Below, in pieces: positions 6,763 to 61,329 of a DNA stretch of 64,000 nt. Location: NCBI RefSeq assembly GCF_003025005.1, contig NZ_PVSS01000013.1, positions 1 through 64,000 on the forward strand, in the 5' to 3' direction. Position numbers and translations under genes: made by a program. The stretch comes from Brumimicrobium mesophilum. Its GTDB lineage: Bacteria > Bacteroidota > Bacteroidia > Flavobacteriales_D > Crocinitomicaceae. The notes beneath the pieces were generated by a model, which saw only the letters and a list, made by a program, of their open reading frames with translations, did no database searches and had not been told where the DNA came from. Numbering within the stretch: the stretch's first letter is position 1; every line of letters starts with the position of its first letter.

Positions 6763-6977
6763 AAGGTTATGAGTGTAATAATTTGACCTATCATGGCTGC
6801 CCAGTTTCCACCACCAAATCCCAAAGCAAAACCGAGAATATATCCAGGTCGTAAAAAGGTGATCATCCAATCTGAAAACAGGATTCCGGCATCCGTTATG
6901 ATGTCAAACAACACAAGTGTGGATGGAACCCAATAAATTAGGGCTAAAAGTATGGACAGGGCAATTCGTTTAAGCAT
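6717..6977 (-). CDS. Small membrane protein, unknown function
   Basis: 86 residues with two or three predicted membrane segments (about 5-26, 45-60 and 62-80) and a basic tail. I recognise no family. Its last 15 or so codons have been copied three times into the 191-bp tandem array directly downstream, and a partial, recombined copy lies at 4515-4702. The duplication shows local instability; whether the protein is made is not certain. Confidence 0.5.
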   Translation of the reverse strand: MLKRIALSILLALIYWVPSTLVLFDIITDAGILFSDWMITFLRPGYILGFALGFGGGNWAAMIGQIITLITLSAIIFFIINHKKSA

Positions 6978-6989
6978 TTAGAAGCATCT

Positions 6990-7181
6990 TTAAAAATGAA
7001 GTACGTCTTTAAACTTGGCTTCTTTGATCTGTTGAATGATTTCTTCTCCTTCTACTATGGTAGAACAAGGAATAATTATTTTGTTTGGCGCATTTTTAAT
7101 ATCATTCATTACAGCCCAATTACCAGCCATCATCTTTTGAATTTTTAATGTCCCTATTATTTTGGGTCTTACAAATCTCAT
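6990..7181 (-). CDS. Small hypothetical protein
   Basis: 63 residues, ATG start, ending 12 bases before the membrane protein gene on the same strand. Composition is ordinary, with no signal peptide or membrane segment and no family I know. The segment AVMNDIKNAPNK reappears in the chimeric remnant at 4515-4702, which suggests the stretch was once part of a duplicated unit. May be a fragment of a larger gene. The 172 bases upstream are G-rich on the plus strand and show no other feature. Confidence 0.4.
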   Translation of the reverse strand: MRFVRPKIIGTLKIQKMMAGNWAVMNDIKNAPNKIIIPCSTIVEGEEIIQQIKEAKFKDVLHF

Positions 7182-7353
7182 GTTGGTTTTTTTTGGGGGT
7201 TAGTGGGTGGTTTTGGTTTAAATCTTCAAATCAAAGCTAAGAAATATTTTGAGGTTTCTGTCGGATTGATGAAAAGGGAGGGTTTTGGGAGAGTTAGTGG
7301 TTTGGGAAGAAATTATAATATCTCAATTTAAGAATGATTTACTATAAAATAAA

Positions 7354-8187
7354 CTAAGTGACAAGTAAGTTTTCAAAACCTTCATGATTAACAATTGCAA
7401 CTTGTAATAAGGACTTCCAATGATTATGACCATACAAAGCTCGCATTTCGTCAGATGATTTTTTGACAGTTTTCCGGTATTCCTCTATTCCTATCATTGG
7501 AATGATTGCATTTGCAGAAGAAACAAGAGAGTCAATAACTTCATGAGAGGACTCTTTAAATCTTTGGAAAAGATTTAATTTAGTGTAATGAGATAGAGTT
7601 AATCTATAAAATTCAGACGGTATTGCTGTTTTGTCAATTGAAAATTCAGGAATTGGATAAGAATTGAAATTTATTTTTAAAAATTCAATGTCTGGCAGAG
7701 TATCGTAATATAGGTTGTAAAATAATCTACGATCCTTTTCAAGCCAACGCTTACCTTTTGTTTGGTTACAAGATAAGCAGCATGGAAATAAGTTAAATGG
7801 GTTAACGGAAAACTCTGGGAATTCCTCCTTGGGAACAATATGATCAAAGGACCCAATAGGATCTATTGAACACATTTGACATGTATTGAATTTTCGATTA
7901 TTTATGGTTGTTAGAAGTATGTGTAAATCTTGAATTGGTTTAGTATCATACCTATAGAGAGATAAGAGATCTTTTTTTTCTTGGGAGCTAAAATCACTCT
8001 TCGGTATTAATTCAAAACTACCTTCAGAAATTAACCTAGTGTATTCTTGATATGATAGATCAATTCTTGGTGATAGTGTATCGAGACGACTTTTGTAAGC
8101 AGGATCATTGGCTTTAAACTGTTTCCTTTTTACCTGATTAAGATGAAATTCAAAACAATTCTCACTATATGCATTAATATTCCTCAT
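7354..8187 (-). CDS. HNH endonuclease, PtuB-like partner of the upstream ATPase
   Basis: 277 residues. A zinc-bearing HNH nuclease core lies at residues 103-145: Cys103-x-x-Cys106, Asp115-His116 in FDHIVPK, Asn129/Asn132, and Cys137-x-x-Cys140-Asn. This is the usual treble-clef arrangement of DNA-cutting HNH enzymes. The flanking helical regions are unfamiliar. The gene starts two bases after the stop of the ATPase gene, so the pair is an operon. The order ATPase then HNH, and the sizes, match the Septu defence system (PtuA-PtuB), in which the nuclease degrades DNA or RNA-associated targets during phage infection. Assignment to Septu is by architecture only. Confidence 0.85.
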   Translation of the reverse strand: MRNINAYSENCFEFHLNQVKRKQFKANDPAYKSRLDTLSPRIDLSYQEYTRLISEGSFELIPKSDFSSQEKKDLLSLYRYDTKPIQDLHILLTTINNRKFNTCQMCSIDPIGSFDHIVPKEEFPEFSVNPFNLFPCCLSCNQTKGKRWLEKDRRLFYNLYYDTLPDIEFLKINFNSYPIPEFSIDKTAIPSEFYRLTLSHYTKLNLFQRFKESSHEVIDSLVSSANAIIPMIGIEEYRKTVKKSSDEMRALYGHNHWKSLLQVAIVNHEGFENLLVT

Positions 8188-8189
8188 GA

Positions 8190-10169
8190 TTAATCTTGGA
8201 ATAGGCTTCTAATAAAAAGGCGTAAATTTAGACTTACTGGAATGTCCTCACTTTTTATAGAATTAATAATATGATTTAAAGATTTACCTTTTCGTTTTAA
8301 AGATTTTATTAATGATTGGTAATGTTTAGGAATTTCACTTGTACCAAAAATTTCTTCTGTAATATCTGAAAGATTTGCACCAAAAGATTCTAAACCAATT
8401 TTTCTAATCGATAAGTTATCTTCAAATCGATCAAAAATATAAACATTTCTCGAAAAAAGCTCACGGATAATTATAGGAGAGTGAGTAGTAATAATACAGA
8501 AGGATTGAAACCTTGTAACTAAACTATAAATAGTATTCATTATTTGAGCAATTGCGTTTGGATGAAGATGAGTTTCAGGCTCATCAAAGAGAAGCAAAGA
8601 GTCATAACGTATATGAGCAATAATATTGGTAAACCCTTCTAATAACACGCGTTGGCCAGAGCTAAGTTCTTTCCTTATTAAGTTTAGTTTTTGAATATTT
8701 ACAACTGGTTTCTCAAAATCAATTTCAGTGAATATTTCATTTATATAATTAGAGGGTAGAAAATCCGAAAGTACTTTCTTCCAATCTTCAACTCTATCCA
8801 ATTCTTGAATTCGTTTACGAGACTTACCAAACTTTATCGAACGCCCATGATCATCGCTTAAATTACCTTGATCATCTCTTAGATTGAACGAAATATGTTC
8901 AATATGCTCGCTTGGCTTATATGGTTTATAATTATCAAAAGGACTGTAAGAAAGTGATATTATTTTAGAAAAAAGAGGAGTAGGGCCTTCAAAGTATGAA
9001 TTGTCATCCTTTATAAGATTATTTGCTAACTGAGAAACAAACTGTGTTTTACCTACGCCATTTTTCCCAATTATAGCAAATATTCTATTTGGAATTTCTG
9101 AAATATTTTCAAAATTTAATTTAATGGGTATACTGTTACCTGAATTAATAAAATTTGGAGTAAATAAATAAGTGAATTTATACATGTCAGCTCGCGATCT
9201 GCCGTTTATTTCATGTCTTACTTCTCTTAATGTCCTCTCAGCTATGTTGTTTCTTATTAAGGAGTTTTTGAAATAGTATTTTTTTTCAAAAGCATCTTCA
9301 ATTTCTGTGAAAAAAGCACAATCGCGCAAGGCGAAAAGAATTGATCTAAATTTTTGTTTAAATTTATCCTTTAGTTTATTATAATAATCTAAATCTTGGC
9401 CAAGACTACAATATGACTCATCTAATTCACTAAAGGATACAGGTAATATTGTATGAAAGTTTGGATAGTCTTTATTTGATTTAGAGTAGTTGTCTATGTT
9501 ATTTGTGATTATTTTTACTACACCAAAACGTTCAATATTTCCCTCGGAATCTTTGTATATTAAGTCAAATATTGATTGCAAGTTGTAATCATTCCAAGTG
9601 TATCTAGAGGAGTCTAAAATGAATATATCCTTCTTTTCGGTCATAAAATCCTTTATTGACCCTTCTACTGTTTTAGTGTAAAAGGTGATTTTATTTTGAA
9701 TTACCCCTGCTGGGTATTTAACCCCTGCTGGATATTTATTAGTAGGATTATAATTTAATAACTCAAAAATAGGCAAATCATCTTCGTTAAAGTCAGACAT
9801 TTCTATAGAGAGGTCTTGCTTGTTTAGGAACTCATTTAGTTCGTCAACCAAATCTAATCTTTCCTGTTCAGATGCTTGAAAATTGGGTTCTAATATATAT
9901 TCAATTAATTTAAATAGATAATCTTCTTTTAAAATATCAAACCTTGTAAGAAAAGTATATTCTAGGTCCCAATCATTATTATTGACTAAATGTTGCCTTG
10001 AATCTTCGTAAGCATTATTGAATCTTGGATCTTCTGATGGCAGAATTTTAGTATTAAAAACATAATCTAATAATTTAATAATGTTTTCTTGTTCCGCACC
10101 ATATAAAACAGAGGGTTTAGCTATTAATAGATTTATTAATTCAAGCTTCTTTACTTTATTTAACTTCAT
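8190..10169 (-). CDS. AAA/ABC-type ATPase with AbiJ-like N-terminus, PtuA-like
   Basis: 659 residues. The C-terminal part is an ABC/SMC-like ATPase: Walker A IGKNGVGKTQ (about residue 367), signature LSSGQRVLLEG, Walker B with DEPETHLHP, and THSP switch histidine, as in OLD, PtuA and related defence ATPases. The first ~110 residues contain DPRFNNAYEDSRQHLVNNNDW, close in pattern to the AbiJ N-terminal domain 3 found in abortive-infection proteins (from memory of the family). A middle region (about 120-340) is unrecognised and contains a duplicated KYPAGV hexapeptide. Forms a two-gene operon with the HNH nuclease; no reverse transcriptase or retron RNA is present. Confidence 0.88.
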   Translation of the reverse strand: MKLNKVKKLELINLLIAKPSVLYGAEQENIIKLLDYVFNTKILPSEDPRFNNAYEDSRQHLVNNNDWDLEYTFLTRFDILKEDYLFKLIEYILEPNFQASEQERLDLVDELNEFLNKQDLSIEMSDFNEDDLPIFELLNYNPTNKYPAGVKYPAGVIQNKITFYTKTVEGSIKDFMTEKKDIFILDSSRYTWNDYNLQSIFDLIYKDSEGNIERFGVVKIITNNIDNYSKSNKDYPNFHTILPVSFSELDESYCSLGQDLDYYNKLKDKFKQKFRSILFALRDCAFFTEIEDAFEKKYYFKNSLIRNNIAERTLREVRHEINGRSRADMYKFTYLFTPNFINSGNSIPIKLNFENISEIPNRIFAIIGKNGVGKTQFVSQLANNLIKDDNSYFEGPTPLFSKIISLSYSPFDNYKPYKPSEHIEHISFNLRDDQGNLSDDHGRSIKFGKSRKRIQELDRVEDWKKVLSDFLPSNYINEIFTEIDFEKPVVNIQKLNLIRKELSSGQRVLLEGFTNIIAHIRYDSLLLFDEPETHLHPNAIAQIMNTIYSLVTRFQSFCIITTHSPIIIRELFSRNVYIFDRFEDNLSIRKIGLESFGANLSDITEEIFGTSEIPKHYQSLIKSLKRKGKSLNHIINSIKSEDIPVSLNLRLFIRSLFQD

Positions 10170-13558: not shown

Positions 13559-13636
13559 AACATTTATTTTCTTTCAAATTATTTTCAAGTTCGTAGGGTT
13601 GATATGAGAAAATATCGACACTACAAACACTCGAAA

Positions 13637-14854
13637 ATGAAAAAACTTACATTCTTATCTATTTTATCCATCTTGTTAGTTTTTAACGTACAAGGACAAG
13701 GAAATCCAAACTACGACGGAGGATTTAAAATTAAATTCGATGATGAAGGTCAGAAATACATTCGCTTTTTAGCATGGACCCAGTTTCAGGCGGTCATGGA
13801 TGATGCTCCAGCACCAACAGAAAGTCTGATCAACATGAAATTACGTAGAGCAAGGTTTTTGGCCTATGGTCAGTTACTTGATAACTTTCTTGTTGTAACC
13901 CATTTTGGTTTAAACAGTTTAGACGCAAATAACATGTCTCCAACTGGGCAATCAGCAGGAGCACAACTTTTTATGCATGACGCTTGGGTGCAGTACAGTG
14001 TGCATAAAAACCATGTTATTGGTGGTGGTTTACATTATTGGAACGGGTTGTCGCGATTAAACGCTCAAAGTACATTGAACATGATGACTTTGGACAATTA
14101 CCGTCCAGGTTGGTCAACTTTAGGATTATCAGATCAATTTGCTCGACACCTTGGTTTCTTTATGAAAGGAAGTTTTGGTAAATTTCAATATCAAGTATCG
14201 ATAAATGAAGCCATCACAAATACTTTAGATGAAAGAGACATTTTAAGTAATGAAACGATTTATCAAGGAAGAAAACTACTCGGTTCTAGAGATGCCGGAA
14301 AAACTTACGGGGGATATTTTGTATACAATCTTTTGGACACAGAATCCAACTTTTTACCCTATAAAACAGGAACCTATAACGGGGGCAAAAAATTATTGAA
14401 TATTGGAGCTGGTTTTTTCTTACATCCAAACGGTGTTGTTCGCTTAGATAACAATTTAAATATCCAATCAGAAGATGTACAACATTTTGCAATTGATGTT
14501 TTCTATGATCATCCCCTTGGAGAAAATGGAGCTGCACTTACTGCATATGCCTTAGCACAACATAACGATTATGGAACAGACTTTAATTTTGGTCCTTACT
14601 CAACAGGGATGATGTATTATGGTCATGTTGGCTATTTAATTCCTGGTGATATAAAAGGAGCAAAATTTCAACCTTATATTTCATACGGAAATCATGATTT
14701 AGACTTTAATTCTTTAAGCAAAACAAACATTGGTGGAGGATTCAACCTATTCTTTAATGGACACAATGCAAAAATCACGGTTGGCTATCAAAACGAAACA
14801 TTCATGAACTCAACTGATCACCAACTTACTCTACAAACCATGCTTTATTTATAA
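13637..14854 (+). CDS. Outer-membrane porin-like beta-barrel protein
   Basis: 405 residues from the ATG at 13637; an upstream in-frame ATG at 13604 would put eleven charged residues before the signal peptide, so I reject it. Signal peptide residues 1-20 with probable cleavage near Gln-Gly. The mature protein has alternating polar/hydrophobic strands rich in Tyr, Phe, Asn and Gly, and ends in Met-Leu-Tyr-Leu, as expected of a barrel. It is likely to let small acids or other solutes cross the outer membrane. It directly precedes the symporter genes (20-base gap), which suggests one uptake route. No specific porin family is claimed. Confidence 0.75.
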   Translation: MKKLTFLSILSILLVFNVQGQGNPNYDGGFKIKFDDEGQKYIRFLAWTQFQAVMDDAPAPTESLINMKLRRARFLAYGQLLDNFLVVTHFGLNSLDANNMSPTGQSAGAQLFMHDAWVQYSVHKNHVIGGGLHYWNGLSRLNAQSTLNMMTLDNYRPGWSTLGLSDQFARHLGFFMKGSFGKFQYQVSINEAITNTLDERDILSNETIYQGRKLLGSRDAGKTYGGYFVYNLLDTESNFLPYKTGTYNGGKKLLNIGAGFFLHPNGVVRLDNNLNIQSEDVQHFAIDVFYDHPLGENGAALTAYALAQHNDYGTDFNFGPYSTGMMYYGHVGYLIPGDIKGAKFQPYISYGNHDLDFNSLSKTNIGGGFNLFFNGHNAKITVGYQNETFMNSTDHQLTLQTMLYL

Positions 14855-14874: not shown

Positions 14875-15138
14875 ATGAAAAACAAAGATGAAAATGCAAA
14901 AGCTTACTGGCGCGAAAACGTACGCTACTTAGTCATACTGTTGTCTATTTGGTTTTTAGTCTCTTATGGCGCTGGAATCATGTTTAAGGATGCTTTAAAC
15001 ACAATAAAAATTGGAGGTTTTAAACTCGGATTCTGGTTTGCGCAACAAGGCTCTATTTTGGTATTCGTCGTACTCATTTTCGTGTACGTTCGCCTGATGA
15101 ATAAGCTAGATAAGAAATATGGTTATGACGAAGATTAA
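14875..15138 (+). CDS. DUF4212 small subunit of a sodium/solute symporter
   Basis: 87 residues with two membrane helices (about 18-38 and 55-77), a charged N-terminus containing AYWRENVRYL, and a charged C-terminus. This is the DUF4212 family, whose genes sit directly before a sodium:solute symporter gene in many bacteria. The 12-base gap to the symporter supports cotranslation and a two-subunit transporter. Confidence 0.9.
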   Translation: MKNKDENAKAYWRENVRYLVILLSIWFLVSYGAGIMFKDALNTIKIGGFKLGFWFAQQGSILVFVVLIFVYVRLMNKLDKKYGYDED

Positions 15139-15150
15139 AAAATAGAAATT

Positions 15151-16932
15151 ATGGACGGACAATTATTAACATATTTATTTGTAGGGATTTCTTTTGCCCT
15201 ATATATTGGAATCGCAATCTGGTCTCGCGCCGGATCAACAAAAGAATTTTACGTTGCCGGAGGTGGAGTTGGACCCATTGCCAATGGAATGGCAACCGCA
15301 GCTGACTGGATGTCGGCAGCTTCATTTATCTCCATGGCTGGAATCATTTCCTTTATGGGATATGATGGTTCAGTTTTCCTTATGGGATGGACAGGTGGAT
15401 ACGTTTTATTAGCGTTATTACTCGCGCCTTACCTAAGAAAATTTGGAAAATTCACAGTTCCAGATTTTATTGGTGACAGATATTATAGCAACACCGCTAG
15501 ATCAGTTGCAGTTTTTTGTGCATTAATCATCTCATTTACTTATGTGGCAGGACAAATGCGTGGAGTTGGAGTTGTATTTTCTCGTTTTTTAGAGGTCGAA
15601 ATTGACACTGGAGTATACATTGGAATGATTATCGTTTTGTTTTATGCTGTATTGGGAGGAATGAAAGGAATAACCTATACGCAAGTTGCACAGTATTGTG
15701 TTTTGATCTTCGCATTTATGGTTCCTGCAATATTTATTTCAATTCAAATGACAGGAAATCCTATTCCAATGTTTGGTATGGGAGACACAATGGCCTCCAA
15801 TCCAGAGGTAAATTTACTTGATCGATTAGATGGTTTAAATGCCGAGTTAGGTTTCGACAAATACACAGAAGGTTCTAAAAGCATGATTGATGTGATTGCA
15901 ATTACATTAGCATTAATGGTTGGAACAGCTGGACTTCCTCACGTTATTGTTCGCTTTTTCACAGTAAAACGTGTTAAAGACGCACGTAAATCTGCAGGTT
16001 ATGCATTATTATTTATCGCAATTCTTTATGTTACAGCACCAGCCGTAGCAGTTTTCTCTCGTGTAAACCTAATTGAGACCGTAAGTGAAACAGATTACAA
16101 AGAAATGCCTGCTTGGTTTACCAATTGGGAAGACCTAGGATTAATAGGTTGGACAGATAAAAATGCAGATGGTAAAATTCAATATTTAGGTGATGGCCCA
16201 GCCATGGAAGGCGATGGAAACAAACCTGCATTTGATGGCGTTTCAAAAGGAGTGAATGGTGAACGTGTAATCGTTAACCCATCCAACTCTGTAAATGAAT
16301 TATATGTCGATCAAGACATTATGGTAATGGCCAATCCAGAAATTGCAGACTTACCGAATTGGGTAATTGCACTTGTAGCCGCAGGATGTTTGGCAGCAGC
16401 ACTTTCAACAGCTGCAGGATTACTTTTGGTTATCTCTTCTTCGGTTTCTCATGATTTAATTAAGAAAATGATTAAGCCAGACATCTCTGAAAAAGGAGAG
16501 TTAATTGCAGCAAGACTTGCTGCGGTTGGTGCAGTTGTTATTGCGGGATATTTCGGAATTAATCCTCCCGGCTTCGTAGCTGCGGTTGTGGCTTTGGCTT
16601 TTGGTTTAGCAGCAGCGTCATTTTTCCCAGCAATTGTTCTTGGAATATTCCATAAACGAATGAACAAAGAAGGGGCAATCGCGGGAATGGTTGTAGGTAT
16701 GGGATTAATGCTATTCTACATGTTAAAATTCAAATTTCATTTATTTGGAGGTGGAACGAGTGAAGATTGGTGGTTTGGTGTTTCTCCAGAAGGTTTTGGA
16801 GCGGTAGCCATGTTCTTTAATTTCCTAGTTTCATTAGTGATCAGTAGGTTTACTCCTGCTCCACCACTTGAGGTTCAAGAAATTGTAGAAAATATCAGGA
16901 TTCCTAGTGGTGCTGGTGAGGCAACACACTAA
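15151..16932 (+). CDS. Sodium:solute symporter (acetate/short-chain acid type)
   Basis: 593 residues with about 13 membrane helices. SSS-family features include GGVGPIANGMATAADWMSAA near the start and the GTAGLPHVIVRFFTV block, both typical of the ActP-like/VC2705 branch that moves acetate and similar carboxylates with sodium. An extra soluble loop lies at about residues 320-400. Follows the DUF4212 gene and is closed by a strong terminator. Substrate is inferred from family and from the acyl-CoA synthetase downstream. Confidence 0.92.
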   Translation: MDGQLLTYLFVGISFALYIGIAIWSRAGSTKEFYVAGGGVGPIANGMATAADWMSAASFISMAGIISFMGYDGSVFLMGWTGGYVLLALLLAPYLRKFGKFTVPDFIGDRYYSNTARSVAVFCALIISFTYVAGQMRGVGVVFSRFLEVEIDTGVYIGMIIVLFYAVLGGMKGITYTQVAQYCVLIFAFMVPAIFISIQMTGNPIPMFGMGDTMASNPEVNLLDRLDGLNAELGFDKYTEGSKSMIDVIAITLALMVGTAGLPHVIVRFFTVKRVKDARKSAGYALLFIAILYVTAPAVAVFSRVNLIETVSETDYKEMPAWFTNWEDLGLIGWTDKNADGKIQYLGDGPAMEGDGNKPAFDGVSKGVNGERVIVNPSNSVNELYVDQDIMVMANPEIADLPNWVIALVAAGCLAAALSTAAGLLLVISSSVSHDLIKKMIKPDISEKGELIAARLAAVGAVVIAGYFGINPPGFVAAVVALAFGLAAASFFPAIVLGIFHKRMNKEGAIAGMVVGMGLMLFYMLKFKFHLFGGGTSEDWWFGVSPEGFGAVAMFFNFLVSLVISRFTPAPPLEVQEIVENIRIPSGAGEATH

Positions 16933-16937
16933 ATAAT

Positions 16938-16983
16938 AAGCGTTGTTTTATTCATAATTACGAATAAAACAACGCTTTTTTTC
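16938..16983 (+). terminator. Rho-independent terminator after the symporter
   Basis: AAGCGTTGTTTTATTC pairs perfectly with GAATAAAACAACGCTT around an eight-base loop, followed by a T run. It ends the porin/DUF4212/symporter unit. Confidence 0.92.
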
Positions 16984-17009: not shown

Positions 17010-17204
17010 ATGAAAAAACGACATCAACAGAAATTTATAGCATGGACTGCCTTTGGAGCTTTGATTTTAAATCCTCCAATTATTATGGCATTAAATGAAA
17101 AGTTTGTGTTGTGGGGTGTGCCTTCATTTTATGTCTTCATTTTCTTTATTTGGATTTTAACAATTGCACTGAATTATTTATGGATAAAGAAACACGGTGA
17201 GTAG
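17010..17204 (+). CDS. Small two-helix membrane protein
   Basis: 64 residues, basic start and two hydrophobic helices (about 10-28 and 35-57). No named family is recognised. Its last eight bases overlap the GTG start of the sensor kinase gene, so the two are translationally coupled. It may assist the kinase's transporter-like domain, as DUF4212 does for the real symporter; that is inference. Confidence 0.65.
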   Translation: MKKRHQQKFIAWTAFGALILNPPIIMALNEKFVLWGVPSFYVFIFFIWILTIALNYLWIKKHGE

Positions 17205-19908
17205 TTTAGAGTTAATATTAATCATATTTGGATACCTGAGCATTCTGTTCTTTATTGCTTTTTGGGCAGAAAAAAATCACCGGTCCAAAATGGTCAATAG
17301 TCCGTATGTATATGCACTTGGACTGGCGGTATATTGTTCAGCATGGACATATTACGGGAGTGTTGGTGCAGCCGCAAGAACAGGTCCACAGTTTCTAACC
17401 ATTTATTTAGGTCCAGTTTTAGCAGCCCCTTTATGGATAATAATTTTAACGCGAGTAGTAAAAATATCCAAATCTTATAACGTTGCATCAATTGCAGATT
17501 TCATTTCTTTACGTTACGGAAACAACCGTGCATTAGGCGCTTTGGTTACACTAATTTGTGCCGCAAGTATAATTCCATACATTTCACTTCAACTGAAAGC
17601 TTTATCAGAAACATTTCAATTGGTAACAAGCGGAAGCACTGAAATTTCGCACAACAATTGGCTGGAAGACACCTCTTTTTACATTGCATTATCACTAGCC
17701 TTATTCGTTACATTTTTTGGAACGCTTAGTCTTGATGCCTCTAAGAATAAAAAGGGAATTATGTTTTCAATCGCATTCGAATCAATTCTGAAACTTCTTT
17801 TCTTTTTGATCATTGGAATTTATGTGACCTTTTATCTTTTCAATGGAACAGGTGATATTTATTGTCAAGCGGAAGACATCATCAAGGTGAAAAGCTTGGA
17901 AGGTTTATCTGAAATCACAAGTGGAATAAATTGGTTTTTCAATATTGCCCTATCGTTTTTGGCTATTTTCTTGCTCCCTCGCCAATTTCAAACCAGTGTG
18001 ATTGAATATGCAAACAAAAAACAAATATCAAAAGCAATGTGGGTATTTCCTTTGTACCTACTCTTGTTCAATATTTTTGTAATCTTCATTGCTTGGGCAG
18101 GTATAATTTTGCTCGGGGACAATGTAAATTATGATTATTTGACCATTTTAATCCCCATGAGTCAAGGGAATAACACCCTCGCTGTAATGGTTTTCCTTGG
18201 TGGATTATCTTCTGTGATTTCTATGGTTGTTGTTTCTACCTTGGCACTCTCTACCATGTTAAGTAACAACCTCATCATTCCTTATGGGTTTTTAGGTAAG
18301 TTTTCGGGTGAAAAAGCGCCTAAAAATGAGAAAACAATCAAAAACATACGAAGAATAGCCGTTTTTTCATCAATTGCATTGGCTTATGGGTTGTATGCAG
18401 GAATAGGAACAGACGTTCCTCTTTTTGACATTGGATTGATTTCGTTTTTAATCATTGCCCAACTTGCTCCGTCATTCTTTTTCGGGTTATTTTGGAATAG
18501 AGGATCTTCAAAAGGAGCGATCATTGGAATTATCATTGGGTTTGCAGTAATAATGTACACCTACTTATGGCCTTTTATCGCCATAGAAATTTTAGAAAAC
18601 CCCATCTTGTTGACTCCTTCCCTATTTGGTGTTGAATTTTTACATCCTCACTACATCATGGGAATTGATTATTTAACACCGATGACGCACGCATTGTATT
18701 TAAGTTTATTGATGAATTGCTGTGTTTATCTTTATTTCTCCTTGTTTTTTAAAGGGAATTACAGAGAACGAAACTACGGAGAAGTATTTGTTAATGCGGA
18801 CGATTTAGACGAGAATAGTGACACATCGTTAGTATGGGATGGAAAAGCATACATGGAAGATATTCAATCAATTTTAGTGCGTTTCCTTGGTGAAAAGAGA
18901 ACAAAAAGAGCAGTAACAATTTTCCGTAAAAGGTATAAGATTAGCGAAGATGAAATACTCGCAGATGCGCGTTTCATTAATTTCTCAGAAAAATTATTGA
19001 CCGGAGCCGTGGGAAGTGCTTCAGCAAAAATTCTAATTGCAAAAGTGGCGAATGAAAAACCAGTCTCTTTACCCAATGTATTAAAAATTCTACAAGAAAG
19101 TAAAGAAGCTTTCTCCTCTAGTAAATTGTTCGAAAGTCAGTCCATTGAATTACGAAAACTTACTGAAGAGTTGAGAAAAGCGAATGAGGCCCTGATTTTC
19201 CAAGACAAGCAAAAAGATAATTTTTTAGATACAGTAGCCCATGAATTAAAAACGCCCATTACATCCATTTATGCCAGTGCGGAAATATTGCAAGAAGACA
19301 CCGAAGTTCCACAAGAAATTAGACAACAATTTCTCAATAATATATTAGCAGATGCAAAGCGTTTAACAAGGTTAATCAATGACATTCTCGACTTAGAAAA
19401 ATTAGCCTCTGGAAGAGAAAAGCTCGATATTCAAAAAATGGATATTAGCAAAACAATAGAAAGTGCTATTCCTTCATTTGACGCAATAAAATTAAGGAGA
19501 AACTTAAAAATTAATCGTTTAACCATAGATTCGTATGAAATTGAACATGATCGTGAAAAAATAACTCAGGTACTCACGAATATCATTTCAAATGCATTAA
19601 AGTTTATTCAGAATAAAGTTGGTGAGATAAGCATTTCTGGGAAAATAGATAAATCTACTGCTTCCTACCGCATTGAAATCGCTGATAATGGTCCTGGAAT
19701 ACCTCAGCAAGATGTTCCTTTTGTCTTTGATAAATTTTATCAATCACAAGATCAAACACTAAAAAAACCAAAAGGGAGTGGATTTGGATTAGCAATAAGT
19801 AAACAAATTATTGAAATTCATAATGGGAAAATTAATGTGGATAAGCTATATTCAGCAGGAACAAAAATAGTAATTGAAATTCCACTTAAAAAAGACAAAT
19901 ATGAGTAA
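17197..19908 (+). CDS. Symporter-histidine kinase of CbrA/CrbS type
   Basis: 903 residues, GTG start. The N-terminal ~490 residues form a sodium:solute symporter domain with about 13 helices (AYCSAWTYYGSVG-like start block). A STAC-like linker follows (about 556-620, RFLGEKR...LLTGAVGSASAKIL), then a coiled coil, a DHp helix with His682 in VAHELKTPITS, and a HATPase domain with the N, G1 (DNGPGIP) and G2 (GSGFGLA) boxes. CbrA and CrbS of Pseudomonas and Vibrio control carbon use and acetyl-CoA synthetase expression. The gene overlaps the following receiver gene by eight bases and the acyl-CoA synthetase gene is next, so it probably senses or carries a carboxylate and governs the same regulon. 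Confidence 0.92.
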   Translation: MSSLELILIIFGYLSILFFIAFWAEKNHRSKMVNSPYVYALGLAVYCSAWTYYGSVGAAARTGPQFLTIYLGPVLAAPLWIIILTRVVKISKSYNVASIADFISLRYGNNRALGALVTLICAASIIPYISLQLKALSETFQLVTSGSTEISHNNWLEDTSFYIALSLALFVTFFGTLSLDASKNKKGIMFSIAFESILKLLFFLIIGIYVTFYLFNGTGDIYCQAEDIIKVKSLEGLSEITSGINWFFNIALSFLAIFLLPRQFQTSVIEYANKKQISKAMWVFPLYLLLFNIFVIFIAWAGIILLGDNVNYDYLTILIPMSQGNNTLAVMVFLGGLSSVISMVVVSTLALSTMLSNNLIIPYGFLGKFSGEKAPKNEKTIKNIRRIAVFSSIALAYGLYAGIGTDVPLFDIGLISFLIIAQLAPSFFFGLFWNRGSSKGAIIGIIIGFAVIMYTYLWPFIAIEILENPILLTPSLFGVEFLHPHYIMGIDYLTPMTHALYLSLLMNCCVYLYFSLFFKGNYRERNYGEVFVNADDLDENSDTSLVWDGKAYMEDIQSILVRFLGEKRTKRAVTIFRKRYKISEDEILADARFINFSEKLLTGAVGSASAKILIAKVANEKPVSLPNVLKILQESKEAFSSSKLFESQSIELRKLTEELRKANEALIFQDKQKDNFLDTVAHELKTPITSIYASAEILQEDTEVPQEIRQQFLNNILADAKRLTRLINDILDLEKLASGREKLDIQKMDISKTIESAIPSFDAIKLRRNLKINRLTIDSYEIEHDREKITQVLTNIISNALKFIQNKVGEISISGKIDKSTASYRIEIADNGPGIPQQDVPFVFDKFYQSQDQTLKKPKGSGFGLAISKQIIEIHNGKINVDKLYSAGTKIVIEIPLKKDKYE

Positions 19909-20268: not shown

Positions 20269-23200
20269 ATGAGTTATTCAGAAGAAAAAACAAGAAGTGA
20301 GAAAGAAGCCAATGAATTTTGGCTAGACGAAGCCAAACGTTTAAGTTGGTATAAACAGCCAACAAAAGGGTACTCCGAAGGAGAAGATGGAAGTTCGAAT
20401 TGGTTTACGGATGGAAAATTAAACATGAGTTATCTATGTATAGACAAGCATATTGAGGACGGTTTTGGAGACCAAATCGCGGTGATTTATGATTCTGCCG
20501 TTCGACAAAAGCAAGTCAAACATACATTTAATCAAGTCCATGAAAAAGTTGCAAAACTGGCAAGTGGATTGAGAAGTTTAGGAGTTGAAAAAGGAGATAC
20601 TGTGGTAATTTACATGCCCATGATTTCTCACGCACTTTTCAGTATGTTGGCTTGTGCTAGAATTGGAGCAATTCACTCTGTAGTTTTTGGCGGATTCGCA
20701 CCAGATGAATTAGCTGCACGTATTGACGATGCAAAACCAAAAGTGCTTATCACCGCATCATCAGGAATTGAAGTTGACCGATTAATTGCGTACAAACCAA
20801 TGGTGGATGAAGCCATTGAAAAAGCAAAACACAAACCGGAAAAAGTTGTGATCTACAACCGAAAATTGGGGGTAGAATCCGAGCATAAATCTTATGATGT
20901 AGATTACAATGAATTGGTCATGAAAAGTGAACCAATAGAGGCAGTTCCTGTAAAAGCTGATCACCCACTTTACATTTTATATACTTCTGGAACAACAGGA
21001 ACACCAAAAGGTGTTGTTCGCGACACTGGAGGTTATGCCACAGCCTTACATTTTTCAATGCGTACAATTTACGATGCAAAACCAGGAGAAGTATTCTGGG
21101 CTGCATCTGACGTTGGTTGGGTTGTTGGGCACAGTTACATTGTTTATGGGGCGCTATTAAATAGAAACACCACCATTATTTACGAAGGAAAACCAGTTCG
21201 TACTCCGGATGCGGGTTCTTTTTGGCGTGTTATCGAAGATCACAAGGTAAATGTGATGTTTACAGCACCAACAGCATTTAGAGCAATTAAAAAAGAGGAT
21301 CCAAACGGAGATTTAATTAAAAAATATGACATTTCTTCATTGAAATATCAATTTTTGGCGGGTGAACGTTGCGATACTGCAACGTTAAGATGGTCCGAAA
21401 AAATGTTGCAAGTTCCTGTTATTGATCACTGGTGGCAAACAGAATCTGGTTGGCCAATCGTAGCGAATTTTATGGGACTAGAGAAATTCCCGGTAAAAGA
21501 AGGTTCTGTTGGTAAATCTGTACCGGGTTACAATGTCCAAGTGCTGAACGAAGCCGGAGAATTAGCACCAAAAGGTGAGGAAGGATATTTAACTATTCAA
21601 AAGCCACTTCCGCCAGGTTTTATGCCAATTTTATGGAAAGCCAAAGAGCGAACTCAAGCAGCCTATTATGAAAGATTCGAAGATTATTACTTTTCAGGTG
21701 ATGGAGGATTCGTTGATGCCGATGACTACGTTTATGTAACTGGTAGAATTGATGATGTAATAAACGTTGCTGGACATAGATTATCAACCGCACAATTGGA
21801 AGAGGTTGTTGCTAGCCATGAATCAGTTGCCGAATGTGCTGTAATTGGAATTGACGACACACTTAAGGGACAAATTCCTTTAGCGATTGTTGTGCCTAAA
21901 ATTGGTGAAGAATACAATGAAAGCTTCCAATTAGAAACCGAAGTTGTTCAAATTGTGCGTGATGTAGTTGGACCAGTGGCTTGTTTGAAAAAAGTAATTG
22001 TTGTCAAACGTTTACCTAAAACACGAAGCGGTAAAATATTGCGTCAAACATTACGTAAAATCGTGGATGGAAAAGACTACGTGATTCCTTCAACTATTGA
22101 AGAACCAATGGTGATTTCAGAATTAATCGAAATCTTTTCTCAAGAAAAAATTGGTGCTTTCGCTAAGGATAAAAACACTTTAGTGAATTCTTTAAAAGCA
22201 TTAACTGACTCTTATTACAATGTAGATTCATTAGAAAAATACATTGATCTTAACCGAATTTCTCAAAGCGATCCAGAAAGTTTTTGGAGCACTATCGCCG
22301 AAAGAAATTTCTCATGGAGAAAGAAATGGGACAAAGTTCTTGACTGGAATAAAGAAGAATCTACGGTGAAATGGTTTGAAGGTGCAAAATTGAACATTAC
22401 AGAAAACTGTATCGATAGACATTTAGCATCAAAAGGAGATAAAACAGCTATTATTTGGGAGTCGAATGACCCAACAGAAGCCGCACAACATATTTCTTAT
22501 AAAGAATTGTCCATCCGTGTAAATAAAATGGCCAATGTGCTAAAAAATAATGGCGCTAAAAAAGGGGATAGAATTTGTATTTATCTACCGATGATTCCTG
22601 AGTTATCTGTAGCATTATTGGCTTGTGCTAGAATTGGAGCGATCCATTCAGTGGTATTCGCAGGATTCTCTGCAGCTGCCGTAGCTTCAAGAATTAACGA
22701 TGCTGATTGTAAAATGGTCATTACATCTGATGGTTCATATCGAGGAGCTAAAAAATTAAATTTGAAATCGATTGTTGATGAAGCATTGGAAAATTGCCCA
22801 ATTGTAGAAACAGTTCTTGTTGCTAACCGTACGAATCTTGACGTAGAAATGAAAGCTGGTCGTGACAGATGGTTAGAAAAAGAATTGAGTTACGCCGAGG
22901 AAACATGTGAAGCAGAAGAAATGGATGCAGAAGATCCTTTATTCGTTCTTTATACTTCTGGAAGTACAGGAAAACCAAAAGGAATGGTTCACACTACGGC
23001 CGGATACATGGTTTACACTGCATTTTCTTTTAAAAATGTGTTCCAATATAAAGACGGTGATATTTATTGGTGTACAGCTGATATTGGTTGGATAACCGGA
23101 CACAGTTATATTTTATATGGTCCATTGTTAAACGGTGCCACAACAATAATCTTCGAAGGAGTGCCTTCTTATCCTGATTACGGACGTTTCTGGGAAATCA

Positions 23201-24117
23201 TAGAGAAGTATAAGGTGAATCAATTTTATACAGCTCCAACGGCAATTCGTGCACTTGCAAATCAAGACATTGATTTTGTGAACAAACACGATTTATCATC
23301 ATTGAAAGTATTGGGATCAGTTGGGGAACCAATAAATGAAGAAGCATGGCACTGGTACAACGACAATATTGGTAAGAAAAAAGCACCAATTGTTGATACT
23401 TGGTGGCAAACAGAAACAGGTGGAATTATGATTTCTCCTATTCCATTCGTTACACCTACAAAACCGACATTTGCTACTTTACCTTTGCCTGGAATTCAAC
23501 CAGCGTTAATGGATGAAGAAGGGAAAGAAATTCAAGGAAATAGTACAGCAGGAAGACTTTGTATTAAGTTCCCTTGGCCTAGTATGGCGCGAACAGTTTA
23601 TGGCGATCACCAAAGGTATATCGATACCTATTTCTCTGCTTACAAAGGAATGTATTTCACTGGAGACGGAGCTTTGAGAGATGAAGTTGGTTACTATAGA
23701 ATTACTGGTCGTGTGGATGATGTTGTGATTGTTTCTGGACACAATTTAGGAACAGCTCCAATCGAAAACGCGATTAATGAACACCCTGCAGTGGCTGAAT
23801 CAGCAATTATTGGTTTCCCTCACGATATCAAAGGGAATGCGCTTGCAGGATTCATTATATTGAAAGATGAAACAAGAAATCCGGAGAATCTACAAAAAGA
23901 GATCAACAATCTAATTTCTAGCAGTATAGGTCCAATTGCAAAACTGGATAGAATTCACTTCGTATCTGGATTACCGAAAACCCGAAGTGGTAAAATTATG
24001 AGAAGGATTTTAAGAAAAGTTTCTTCCAATGAAATGGAGAACTTAGGGGATACTTCTACTCTACTTGATCCATCAATTGTGGATGAGATTATTGAAAAAG
24101 TGAAAGAAGTTCTTTAG
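20269..24117 (+). CDS. Fused acyl-CoA synthetase: PrpE-like half + Acs half
   Basis: 1282 residues in one frame, twice the normal size. Residues about 1-615 form a complete AMP-forming synthetase with YTSGTTGTPKG (~237), WWQTESGWPI (~387) and PKTRSGKILR (~582); the Gly-Trp-Pro ending fits propionyl-CoA synthetase/ACSS3. After a linker (~615-655), residues about 655-1282 form a second complete enzyme with YTSGSTGKPKG (~894), WWQTETGGIM (~1044) and PKTRSGKIMR (~1235), as in acetyl-CoA synthetase. Both catalytic lysines, the usual acetylation sites, are present. Reaction: carboxylate + ATP + CoA to acyl-CoA + AMP + PPi. No internal stop, frameshift or promoter box is seen at the junction. Last gene of the acetate island, with a terminator downstream. 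Confidence 0.93.
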   Translation: MSYSEEKTRSEKEANEFWLDEAKRLSWYKQPTKGYSEGEDGSSNWFTDGKLNMSYLCIDKHIEDGFGDQIAVIYDSAVRQKQVKHTFNQVHEKVAKLASGLRSLGVEKGDTVVIYMPMISHALFSMLACARIGAIHSVVFGGFAPDELAARIDDAKPKVLITASSGIEVDRLIAYKPMVDEAIEKAKHKPEKVVIYNRKLGVESEHKSYDVDYNELVMKSEPIEAVPVKADHPLYILYTSGTTGTPKGVVRDTGGYATALHFSMRTIYDAKPGEVFWAASDVGWVVGHSYIVYGALLNRNTTIIYEGKPVRTPDAGSFWRVIEDHKVNVMFTAPTAFRAIKKEDPNGDLIKKYDISSLKYQFLAGERCDTATLRWSEKMLQVPVIDHWWQTESGWPIVANFMGLEKFPVKEGSVGKSVPGYNVQVLNEAGELAPKGEEGYLTIQKPLPPGFMPILWKAKERTQAAYYERFEDYYFSGDGGFVDADDYVYVTGRIDDVINVAGHRLSTAQLEEVVASHESVAECAVIGIDDTLKGQIPLAIVVPKIGEEYNESFQLETEVVQIVRDVVGPVACLKKVIVVKRLPKTRSGKILRQTLRKIVDGKDYVIPSTIEEPMVISELIEIFSQEKIGAFAKDKNTLVNSLKALTDSYYNVDSLEKYIDLNRISQSDPESFWSTIAERNFSWRKKWDKVLDWNKEESTVKWFEGAKLNITENCIDRHLASKGDKTAIIWESNDPTEAAQHISYKELSIRVNKMANVLKNNGAKKGDRICIYLPMIPELSVALLACARIGAIHSVVFAGFSAAAVASRINDADCKMVITSDGSYRGAKKLNLKSIVDEALENCPIVETVLVANRTNLDVEMKAGRDRWLEKELSYAEETCEAEEMDAEDPLFVLYTSGSTGKPKGMVHTTAGYMVYTAFSFKNVFQYKDGDIYWCTADIGWITGHSYILYGPLLNGATTIIFEGVPSYPDYGRFWEIIEKYKVNQFYTAPTAIRALANQDIDFVNKHDLSSLKVLGSVGEPINEEAWHWYNDNIGKKKAPIVDTWWQTETGGIMISPIPFVTPTKPTFATLPLPGIQPALMDEEGKEIQGNSTAGRLCIKFPWPSMARTVYGDHQRYIDTYFSAYKGMYFTGDGALRDEVGYYRITGRVDDVVIVSGHNLGTAPIENAINEHPAVAESAIIGFPHDIKGNALAGFIILKDETRNPENLQKEINNLISSSIGPIAKLDRIHFVSGLPKTRSGKIMRRILRKVSSNEMENLGDTSTLLDPSIVDEIIEKVKEVL

Positions 24118-57429: not shown

Positions 57430-60400
57430 TCAATCCTTGTAATTGTCTTCTTCAAGTTTCCTTTTGATATCCTCCAAATTGCTTCTTTTCTTATCCAAAC
57501 GCGTCTCTATTGACGTTTTGGTGAAGTATCTATGGTTGGTCAGGAAAGCTACTTGCATTTGATCCCATTTGCGATCGCTATCTATCTTCCCGTGTTCTCT
57601 AAGTTCTCTTCTTAATCGATCGGCAATTTCATGAAAATCATCTCTTCCTAAATAATCTAAATCAGCATCACAAATGATTTCTTCCAAATTATTCTTTGGT
57701 TTATGTGGTACTTGAGTAACGAAAATTAATTCTTTAATTCTTTCAATATGTGCTTCAGTATATCCAAATTTGGGCAAAATTTCAGCTGCCATTCTTGCTC
57801 CAATTGGTTCATTTCTTTCATATTGTTCTACAAAACCCGCATCATGATAAGACGCGGCAGATTTCAACAAAAATAAATCTTCATCCGTAATCCCTTCACC
57901 AATTGCTATTCTTTCAGCCTGTCTAGTGACATCTTTGGAATGACTGTAAGAATGATAATGTAATTTAGGACTTAATTCTCTTTTCAATTTGGATAAAATA
58001 AAGCGCTCAGCTTTATAATAATTAATCTTACTGAAATGATGAAGATTCACTAACTTTTGAAATGATTTATTTGGTTCAACTCCTAATCCATCAATTGAAA
58101 GCTCAGGTTTTATAGAAATCACCTCATACATTAAAATTTTGTTTCCGCTTTTAGTGGCTACTTTACCGATTCTATTGCATTCAAAATAAGGTTCAATTTG
58201 ATCAAAAGTATCTTGAGAAACAGCTATTTTTTCAGGTTCGCACAGTTGTTCCATTCTTTGCGCTCTATTTACGGTGTTTCCCCAGACGTCATAAGCATAG
58301 CGCTTCGTTCCAATTACTCCTGCAGAAACAGGCCCTGTATTAATTCCTATGCGCAATTTCCAATAAGGTTCTCCTTTCTTTTCTTGTTGGGCTTTAAAAT
58401 CCAACATATAGAACTTAATTTGAACAGCTGCCAGCGTAGTATTGATTGGATTAGTTTTATTCCGAATGGGAACACCTCCAGCGCACATGTATGCATCTCC
58501 AATCGTTTTAATTTTCTCTAGATCGTTCTTATCAATAATACTGTCAAACTTTCTAAAATGCATATCTAAAATAGAAACTAAATCCTTAGCATCCATCTCT
58601 TCAGCAATTTTAGAAAAGCCAACAAAGTCTGTAAACATAATTGAAACCTTACTGAAATCACGTGCAGCAGATCGTCCATCTTTTTTCAACTGACTTGCAG
58701 TTTCTTTTGGTAAAATATTATTCAACAAACGTTCAGACTTGTCTTTTTCCCTTTCTAGTTCTTCAGTTTGAACAACTAAACGCTTCTTTTGCTGTTCAAT
58801 TTTCTCATTCATTTTCCTTAATTCCCGCGTTCGTTCAGCAATTCTCATTTCCAATCTTACTTGCTGCCTGCGTTCTTTATCAATACTTTTCCTAACTCTG
58901 TACAAAATAAATAGACCTACTACAATTATAATAATTACAATAAACCACCATTTAAGCCAAAATGGACCTTCCACCTCAATGGTTATACTTGCAGGGTATT
59001 TTGACCAACTTCCATTGGTATTTCGGGCATAAATGAAGAGCTGATAAACTCCTGGTGCAATACTGGTAAAACGCAATTCATTGGAGGAGCCCAATTCTTC
59101 TTCCACCTCGTCATCGCCCGTCATTACGTATTTATATTCGATACGCTCAGGATTACTCAAGTCATTGGCAAAAAACCTTAGTTTTAAACTTCGCTTATTA
59201 TACGGAATAACGATACGATCTGTAAAAGCAATACTCTGCGTTAAAATTCCATTTTCCACAGGAAATAAAGCTTTATTTTCAAGTTCAATTCCAGAAAAAT
59301 ATACACGAATATTCTTATTAATTTGAAAAGCCTCTTCTGGTTTAACATAATTAAAACCCTGAATACCACCAAAATAAACTTCTCCATTCTTAGAGGTAAA
59401 CCCAGCACCGAAATTCAATTCATTGCTCATTAAACCATCTTTTTCAGAAAAAGTAAAAAAGTTTTCTGTTTTAGTATTTAAAGCTATAATTCCTTTGTTT
59501 GTTGAAAGCCAAATATATTCTGGATCTTTTCCTGTAGCTTCAATTCCATAAATAACATTATTGGGTAAACCATTTGACTTGTTGTATTGAGTAATATTAT
59601 TTTCTGATTTACTAAATCTAAACAAACCATCACCCATTGTTCCCAACCAAAATTCAGTCTCATTTATTTGAAATATATCCGTAAAATAATCCTTCGATAT
59701 TGAATTTAAAGATGAAAATTCATGCTTTGAGGAGGCTATTAGCTGATTGTTTTTTTCTTCAATTAAATAAATACCTCCAGAAGATGGAGCAGCATAAAAA
59801 TGGTTACCCTTTCTAAAGACCAATCTACACGGACCAGGTCCAATAGTATTGCGAACATCTTCTTGATTAAATAAATACTTAAAAGAACGTTCTTTTAAAT
59901 CAAAAAGAATTACTCCAGCACGAGTACCTATTAAAAATTGATGTTCCTTTTTATATTTTTGAATTGTATAAGTAATATCAAAATCTCGAGAAATATTTGC
60001 CCCATGTTTTAGCTTTTCAAAAACATATTCTTTTGGATTATTTTGATCAATAGTGAGTAGAAATAAACCATCAGAACAACCAACTAAAAGTTTGTTTTCG
60101 CTAAGCACTTGGATATTAAAAGTTAGTGAACTTTCATTGTTTTTTATTCTCCTATAATAATGATAATAAGTGTGCGATGTTCTATCAAAAGCAGAAACAC
60201 CATGATCGGCTGCGATGTATAAGTACTTTTGATTTTCAGATTCAGCAAAACCCCAAATATTCTGAGAAGGTAAGCCCTTATTTAGATCTACAGAAACTCC
60301 AACTCCTTTAAAACCAACTGATTCTGGATTAAAACTACTTAAACCCCGTTGAGAAGTTATCCATATAACTCCTTGATTATCCTTAAATAAACTGGTTAAT

Positions 60401-61329
60401 TTATTTGAAACTATGGCTCCTTTTTGAAAAATATCAGCTGAATAATTGATGACATTAATACTGTCATTTTTATCTTTTATAATCTGAAATAATCCCGAAT
60501 TTTCTGAAGCAACAAGTAATTTATCTTTTGAAAGATAGAGGGCATCCAAAATATTCACGTTTGGCAGAGCAGAAAAAAGAGTTTGTAAAGGTAAAAATGA
60601 GTTATCTGTATCCTCTAAATATAAAATTCCTTCATTTGTTGCAATAACAACATCATGTATGGGTGATTCTATAAAACCATTTATCTTAAAATCTGAAGGG
60701 TTTTTAGCATTTGAATCAATTAACTTTCTATTTTTAAATTTAGAATCTGTTACTAAAACTCCTTCAAATTCACTAACAAAAATTAGTGTGTTGTTCTTAT
60801 AGCGAATATCAATAATTCGAGAATTAAAAGTGTTTTCATTTACAAGTTTAAAGTATAATAATTCCGGATCAAACTTGTAAATTTTTCCATAAGCCGTTCC
60901 AACCCAAATATTTCCATTTGCATCTTCTGTTATTGAAGTTACTTCTAATCTTTGATTGGTTTCTAATTGATAGGAGGAAAAATTTACAGATTTTGGATTG
61001 TATTTTGTGAGTCCGTTATTGGTACCAAACCACATGTTTCCAATACGATCGGTAAAACTAGTATTGATATACTCATTGTTAATATCATGTCCTTTATCTG
61101 CTGAAAAAACCTCAAAACTCTTTCCATTAAATCTATTGATACCATCTTGCGTACCTAACCAAAGGGCACCTAATTTATCTTGAATAATACAAGAAACGGT
61201 ACTCTGGGAAAGTCCCTCATTAATGGTATAATTTTTAAACTGTATGTGATCTTGAGCCTTAAGGGATAAATAAGGACTCAAAAAAATCACATACAGCAAA
61301 AAACTTTTAAAAAGTAATTTGTTATTCAT
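57430..61329 (-). CDS. Propeller sensor-adenylate cyclase-HD protein
   Basis: 1299 residues. Signal peptide (about 1-25); a long two-component-regulator-type beta-propeller region (~30-690, with repeated xGTxxGxxxF patterns such as LWLGTQDGINRF and MWFGTNNGLTKY); a Y_Y_Y domain (~695-780); one membrane helix (~788-812); a coiled coil (~815-880); a class III cyclase (~890-1075) with metal Asp in MFTDFVGFS and in KTIGDAYMCAGG, and YDVWGNTVNRAQRM; then an HD domain (~1110-1290) with SHSKDV, SYHDAGF and ICDADLDYLG. Substrate-pocket Lys and Asp favour ATP. HD domains cleave phosphate esters, so it may both make and turn over a nucleotide signal. Monocistronic. Confidence 0.92.
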   Translation of the reverse strand: MNNKLLFKSFLLYVIFLSPYLSLKAQDHIQFKNYTINEGLSQSTVSCIIQDKLGALWLGTQDGINRFNGKSFEVFSADKGHDINNEYINTSFTDRIGNMWFGTNNGLTKYNPKSVNFSSYQLETNQRLEVTSITEDANGNIWVGTAYGKIYKFDPELLYFKLVNENTFNSRIIDIRYKNNTLIFVSEFEGVLVTDSKFKNRKLIDSNAKNPSDFKINGFIESPIHDVVIATNEGILYLEDTDNSFLPLQTLFSALPNVNILDALYLSKDKLLVASENSGLFQIIKDKNDSINVINYSADIFQKGAIVSNKLTSLFKDNQGVIWITSQRGLSSFNPESVGFKGVGVSVDLNKGLPSQNIWGFAESENQKYLYIAADHGVSAFDRTSHTYYHYYRRIKNNESSLTFNIQVLSENKLLVGCSDGLFLLTIDQNNPKEYVFEKLKHGANISRDFDITYTIQKYKKEHQFLIGTRAGVILFDLKERSFKYLFNQEDVRNTIGPGPCRLVFRKGNHFYAAPSSGGIYLIEEKNNQLIASSKHEFSSLNSISKDYFTDIFQINETEFWLGTMGDGLFRFSKSENNITQYNKSNGLPNNVIYGIEATGKDPEYIWLSTNKGIIALNTKTENFFTFSEKDGLMSNELNFGAGFTSKNGEVYFGGIQGFNYVKPEEAFQINKNIRVYFSGIELENKALFPVENGILTQSIAFTDRIVIPYNKRSLKLRFFANDLSNPERIEYKYVMTGDDEVEEELGSSNELRFTSIAPGVYQLFIYARNTNGSWSKYPASITIEVEGPFWLKWWFIVIIIIVVGLFILYRVRKSIDKERRQQVRLEMRIAERTRELRKMNEKIEQQKKRLVVQTEELEREKDKSERLLNNILPKETASQLKKDGRSAARDFSKVSIMFTDFVGFSKIAEEMDAKDLVSILDMHFRKFDSIIDKNDLEKIKTIGDAYMCAGGVPIRNKTNPINTTLAAVQIKFYMLDFKAQQEKKGEPYWKLRIGINTGPVSAGVIGTKRYAYDVWGNTVNRAQRMEQLCEPEKIAVSQDTFDQIEPYFECNRIGKVATKSGNKILMYEVISIKPELSIDGLGVEPNKSFQKLVNLHHFSKINYYKAERFILSKLKRELSPKLHYHSYSHSKDVTRQAERIAIGEGITDEDLFLLKSAASYHDAGFVEQYERNEPIGARMAAEILPKFGYTEAHIERIKELIFVTQVPHKPKNNLEEIICDADLDYLGRDDFHEIADRLRRELREHGKIDSDRKWDQMQVAFLTNHRYFTKTSIETRLDKKRSNLEDIKRKLEEDNYKD

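Follow-up and report, generated by a model that had tools for sequence, protein, structure and literature searches.

A recurrent in-frame fusion of a PrpE-like and an acetyl-CoA synthetase module in Brumimicrobium mesophilum and other Bacteroidota

The fused frame and the genes around it

The stretch considered here, called the window, is 64,000 nucleotides of Brumimicrobium mesophilum DNA (contig NZ_PVSS01000013.1, positions 1 to 64,000), and its subject is a single open frame at 20269-24117 (+), which runs for 1282 codons with no internal stop and encodes a protein with a computed mass of 143.3 kDa. A sequence-only reading had described this frame as two complete AMP-forming synthetases joined end to end, PrpE-like in the first half and Acs in the second, and the frame is indeed open throughout. 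The domain search which that reading had called for finds the Pfam domains ACAS_N, AMP-binding and AMP-binding_C each as two stretches, and the motif positions agree: there are ATP loops at residues 238 and 895, WWQTE motifs of the claimed Gly-Trp-Pro type in the first half (WWQTESGWP, 388) and Gly-Gly type in the second (WWQTETGG, 1045), and a catalytic lysine in each half (K589 and K1242).

When the halves are scored separately, the assignment of the two modules is also supported. The top families for the N half are PrpE families (PRK10524, 724.4 bits against a cut-off of 955; TIGR02316, 671.9 against 827.4), while the C half matches AcsA over its full length with 962.9 bits, well above the TIGR02188 cut-off of 724.95. 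The N module thus has PrpE as its best family, and differs from it in scoring below the curated cut-offs and in being joined to Acs. The C module is like AcsA and the Salmonella Acs (1pg4/2p2f) in length, score and motifs, and differs from a separate acs gene in that it is the C-terminal part of a longer protein and has lost the gene's start methionine. A plain acetate--CoA ligase model gives the complete protein 1606 bits, because the contributions of both halves add up, and the fusion may therefore mislead annotation. A search of the source genome gave one match among six scored candidates.

From the sequence it is very probable that this is a genuine two-module enzyme, with a C3 acid as the substrate of the N module and acetate as that of the C module, which would have arisen by loss of a stop codon between adjacent genes.

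Table 1. Features of the fused frame and its upstream neighbourhood in the window
Feature	Coordinates	Strand	Remarks
IS1-family transposase-like open reading frame (fragment), 136 aa	13086-13496	+	84 bits, cut-off 100; lies immediately before the gene block that Psychroflexus also has
Porin-like outer-membrane protein	13604..14854	+	weak ExtI match, 62.7 bits, cut-off 150
Sodium/substrate symporter small subunit	14875..15138	+	TIGR03647, DUF4212
VC_2705-family sodium/solute symporter	15151..16932	+	TIGR03648, 861 bits, cut-off 321
Strong terminator-like hairpin	16938..16977	+	16-18 pairs, T run; separates transport genes from sensor/synthetase genes
Small hydrophobic open reading frame, 64 aa	17010..17204	+	overlaps symporter-kinase start; no family match above cut-off
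SLC5 symporter-histidine kinase fusion, 903 aa	17197..19908	+	SSF, HisKA, HATPase_c; 8-base overlap with receiver gene
Receiver-only response regulator, 120 aa	19901..20263	+	5 bases upstream of the fusion
PrpE-like module, residues 1-620	20269..22128	+	ACAS_N, AMP-binding, C-terminal domain with K589; pocket V285, V286, A364, W389
28-residue linker, residues 621-648	22129..22212	+	without ATG; GTG at 639, unconserved; ATG 614 just upstream
AcsA module, residues 649-1282	22213..24117	+	K1242; pocket I942, T943, V1018, W1046

Distribution, origin and partial loss of the fusion

Related genomes were surveyed with strict E-value limits in the larger sets (240, 395 and 397 genomes), by which fusions at contig ends may be missed. 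The fusion occurs in one of the 240 genomes of the window's family. A fusion of the same class, here called A, is found in 20 of the 27 genomes of genus g142, that of Psychroflexus salarius (L038 = G646), 16 of them at full length and 4 cut by a contig end; the other seven have a class A Acs alone (2), a different Acs alone (4) or separate adjacent genes (1). A second class, B, is found in 30 of the 38 genomes of genus g271, Lutibacter (L045 = G1085), 28 at full length and 2 cut by a contig end, and the family survey around Lutibacter detected the fusion in at least 9 of 397 genomes, including three genomes from g228 and two from g421, both further class B genera. A class-wide sample gave 2 of 395 genomes, and a third class was met in one Pontibacter, P. 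litorisediminis (L067), while another Pontibacter has separate genes. Taken over all surveys there are 57 distinct fused genomes (1 + 20 + 30 + 3 + 2 + 1). A 1240-residue open frame from the 397-genome survey (L241) stayed unexplained on closer look. The fusion is a conserved, recurrent architecture and no singleton: the possibility that it is a one-off of the window's genome is ruled out by the fusions in g142 and g271 and by the family survey. In the open-access literature searched, which leaves most subscription papers outside, no description of a PrpE-Acs fusion was found; the parts seen of PMC11237513, which deals with fusions in Archaea, where the acetate-CoA ligase is AcdAB, and of PMC11861179 do not mention one.

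The linker between the modules has the same length within each class, 28 residues in all class A rows (21 genomes) and 23 in 36 of 36 class B rows (35 genomes). The linker sequences of the two classes differ, and that of Pontibacter, where an ATG is retained at the former acs start, is different again. A tree of both modules, with 68 of 75 pairs used and a few genomes present twice among the 75, requires three changes between the fused and the separate state, a count that cannot tell gain from loss. A single common fusion for A and B was rejected, as the corresponding clade fails the approximately unbiased (AU) test (p 0.013, obtained with a fast model and for a group chosen only once the tree had been seen) and the linker lengths differ. 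The tree and the clade test suggest that the fusion arose at least twice and that a third origin is probable. A further row selection used 87 of 116 rows.

How such a fusion could arise is seen in the unfused pairs. In 6 of 49 (L002, L043, L044, L069, L119 and L219) both genes lie in the same frame with a single stop between them and a gap of 30-60 bases, and from this follows that loss of a single stop can fuse prpE and acs. In the same six pairs, the products of stop-codon readthrough would be fusions.

Loss appears to have occurred as well. Acs-only genes in G003 (L003), which belongs to the window's genus, in G637 (L195) and in G636 (L196) begin with an N-terminal stretch resembling the second part of the linker, and they nest among the class A fused rows in a tree of 36 rows chosen by us. 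Their placement as outsiders, in which the fused rows form a group that excludes L003, L195 and L196, was rejected (p 2.3e-8, for a grouping named after a tree had been seen), from which it follows that the PrpE half was apparently dropped, most simply three times. A search of the stretches retrieved around the three genes turned up neither PrpE nor symporter-kinase nor receiver, save for a weak match of 25% over 171 residues in L208.

In the 36-row tree the window and G003 are sisters (support 100/99) amid Psychroflexus rows. In a tree of 100 C modules, obtained from 126 of 133 distinct rows (at least 560 residues) after omission of L017-L020, L022, L023 and further relatives, the Acs of these two genomes stands apart from that of seven other members of the genus (L009-L014 and L021; a split match in G008 was omitted). 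Placement of the window inside or beside the Psychroflexus rows is not distinguished (p 0.317). Composition gave no sign of recent transfer, the GC content at third codon positions being 0.27 in both modules, as in other genes. The pattern fits a transfer of the cluster from the Psychroflexus line to the window's genus.

The main rival to a fusion kept for its function is a neutral origin, in which a chance stop loss between in-frame neighbours brought nothing beyond what an operon already gives; this has a substantial chance of being true, though one clearly short of even. The six pairs that are one stop away from fusion speak for it, as do the three Acs-only genes, if they reflect loss of the PrpE half. 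Against it stand the retention of the fusion in the two genera (20 of 27 and 30 of 38 genomes), the class-fixed linker length, the repeated origin and the slow change of the linker at the protein level. When only pairs with a proportion of synonymous differences of at most 0.6 are used, the linker's ratio of nonsynonymous to synonymous substitution rates (dN/dS) is 0.094 in class A (5 pairs) and 0.032 in class B (4 pairs), close to the flanking modules, where the linker rates come from few codons and overlapping pairs and the class B synonymous rate is near saturation.

Substrates and the short-chain-acid cluster

The substrates of the two halves may be judged from the acyl pocket. Four positions, which we take to be those that shape it in the Salmonella Acs (V310, T311, V386 and W414), align with V, V, A and W in the N half and with I, T, V and W in the C half. 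The C half thus shares T, V and W with Salmonella Acs and has Ile in place of Val310; these four residues and K1242 are invariant in 11 aligned fused proteins. The C half has both the catalytic lysine and the acetate-pocket residues expected of AcsA. Over the same 11 proteins both lysines and seven of the eight pocket residues of the two halves are invariant. Among solved structures the N half is closest to 5gxd (732 bits, where the best Acs reaches 435); this entry is listed as an AMP-dependent synthetase and is presumably the PrpE of Dinoroseobacter shibae. It shares with the N module an Ala in place of Val386 and a Val in place of Thr311. The sequence-only reading would have been refuted had both halves been of one substrate class; they belong by their best matches to separate families, and two or three of the four pocket positions are unlike. 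It is thus likely, as judged from these residues, that the N half takes a C3 acid and the C half acetate.

For the N half propionate is likely, and acrylate or a broader short-chain range is possible, because the module is below the curated PrpE cut-offs. When acrylate, or such a broader range, is the main substrate instead, the cluster would be linked to marine breakdown of dimethylsulfoniopropionate (DMSP). This is a possible but rather doubtful alternative, for which the closeness to 5gxd speaks. In PMC5651017 the D. shibae PrpE is used for acryloyl-CoA production, and the same source also names it a propionate-CoA ligase. The neighbouring genes, moreover, are generic short-chain-acid genes. 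The source genome encodes both subunits of methylmalonyl-CoA mutase, to which we return below. Besides this two-subunit mutase on contig C12, the genome (G000) encodes another protein that resembles methylmalonyl-CoA mutase, in a 1150-residue open frame on contig C89 (about 6765-8447, minus strand).

The setting of the fusion is conserved. The VC_2705-type symporter is 81-84% identical to the copies preceding Psychroflexus fusions, and also 82% identical to the copy in G659, a member of the Psychroflexus genus in which prpE and acs are separate. Relatives of the porin-like protein, the symporter and the symporter-kinase precede the Psychroflexus and Lutibacter fusions wherever the retrieved stretch was long enough, and those of the porin-like protein hold the same position in fused and in some unfused loci. 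Relatives often have adjacent, unfused prpE and acs genes downstream of symporter-kinase and receiver, which is the gene order of the window. From this follows that one of the proposed consequences of the fusion, a single transcript, is nothing new, since the separate genes are already consecutive in relatives; the other, a single stoichiometry, stands, in that a fusion adds a fixed 1:1 ratio at the level of the polypeptide.

The sensor genes of the cluster recall the acetate-responsive two-component system CrbS/R, in which an SLC5 symporter-kinase and a response regulator occur beside acs with a VC_2705-type symporter near. The protein of 17197-19908 does join an SLC5 domain to a histidine kinase. 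CrbS kinases have a PAS domain and a C-terminal receiver (PMC7918813), and in the window's kinase neither was matched by Pfam at an E-value of 0.001. The window's regulator is a receiver only, with no DNA-binding domain matched by Pfam, and prpE is part of the cluster; the part of PMC5715377 that was consulted treats CrbS/R as an acetate system and mentions neither propionate nor prpE. Because the kinase is without PAS and receiver matches and the regulator without a DNA-binding part, the pair resembles a system that works like CrbS/R rather than being CrbS/R. Going by gene order, the adjacent kinase may control the fusion.

Elsewhere in the window, 8190-10169 (-) encodes an AAA ATPase whose N-terminal domain is of the AbiJ type and which may act against phages, and 57430-61329 (-) a two-component-regulator propeller protein with a Y_Y_Y domain and a guanylate/adenylate cyclase domain.

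One chain or two, and what the fusion may mean

It was proposed in the sequence-only reading that an internal start giving separate proteins only would refute a fused enzyme, and here the classes differ. In class B the linker region is free of ATG in all 36 rows, and in 26 of these it is free of GTG and TTG too, because of which the Acs half is probably translated only within the fusion. In class A an ATG codon is present just before the linker, at residue 614, in 20 of 21 genomes (it is absent in L193), and may be merely a methionine or an extra start; a conserved start codon within the class A linker itself was not found. A coexistence of fusion and free Acs, to which several class A rows with an ATG about ten codons inside the Acs module, the GTG in the window's linker and the ATG kept in Pontibacter would also lend themselves, is unlikely when weighed against these linkers. 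Still less probable, by a wide margin, is that one module is catalytically dead and has a regulatory or scaffold role: fused duplicates of enzymes often decay, but here both halves retain ATP loop, adenylation motifs and lysine, and neither lysine varies among the 11 fused proteins. The chance that two genes were joined by a sequencing or assembly error, which the sequence-only reading had also raised and which could hold for the single Pontibacter genome, is negligible for the window, where nothing points to it, and the error is refuted for classes A and B, since in many genomes of g142 and g271 the junction recurs with the linker length of its class.

Some results weigh against a two-module enzyme conserved for its function, with the substrates named above. 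Within the window's own genus the fusion is found in 1 of 10 genomes, the window only, and the PrpE half is apparently lost in three class A genomes. The N module scores below the cut-offs of both curated PrpE families, and V285, the one pocket residue that varies, is replaced by Ala in 3 of the 11 fused proteins. Methylmalonyl-CoA mutase is present in all 11 genomes searched by family, including G003, G004 and G005, in which no PrpE match was found at 1e-200, and therefore the mutase is permissive evidence only and does not single out propionate. When the window is compared with four Psychroflexus rows, the proportion of nonsynonymous differences is 0.22-0.32 in the linker and 0.14-0.27 in the flanks, the linker here being no less variable than the flanks and in part more so. 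Finally, the predicted structure (mean predicted local distance difference test 59.5, predicted template modelling score 0.38, alignment of 11 rows) is too poor for the arrangement of the modules. The same model puts helices around the linker (model residues 513-549 = 613-649), an observation that is not relied upon.

With these points taken into account, the observation made in the sequence-only reading is confirmed and its interpretation, that of a PrpE-Acs fusion enzyme, supported. To describe how such an enzyme would work, consider a single 143-kDa product whose N module would act on a C3 acid, most likely propionate and perhaps acrylate, and whose C module would act on acetate; each module would pass through an acyl-adenylate of its own and use its own catalytic lysine. 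One polypeptide would then supply C3-CoA and acetyl-CoA at a fixed 1:1 enzyme dosage, within a conserved short-chain-acid cluster of porin-like protein, symporter, symporter-kinase, receiver, prpE and acs, and it would have originated when the stop between the last two was lost. Any function beyond supplying the two known enzymes in equal amounts would be conjectural.

Gene fusions mostly bring together reactions of the same pathway or parts of the same molecular machine. The propionyl-CoA synthase of Chloroflexus is likewise fused, comprises several domains and includes an acyl-CoA synthetase module, but its fused parts carry out sequential steps. In the PrpE-Acs fusion, by contrast, the two activations are parallel and concern sibling substrates, and most genomes of two genera have kept the fusion. 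Its recurrent origins are natural replicates, in which a hidden interaction, dosage control and mere stop-codon loss can be set against each other. A tentative idea, to which we give well under an even chance, is that PrpE and Acs have been tied together again and again in Bacteroidota because they operate as partners, through shared assembly, through shared control by acylation or through enforced equal dosage beside the symporter-kinase. If this is true, the fusion would be a marker of a physical or regulatory partnership of PrpE and Acs that goes unseen in species with separate genes.

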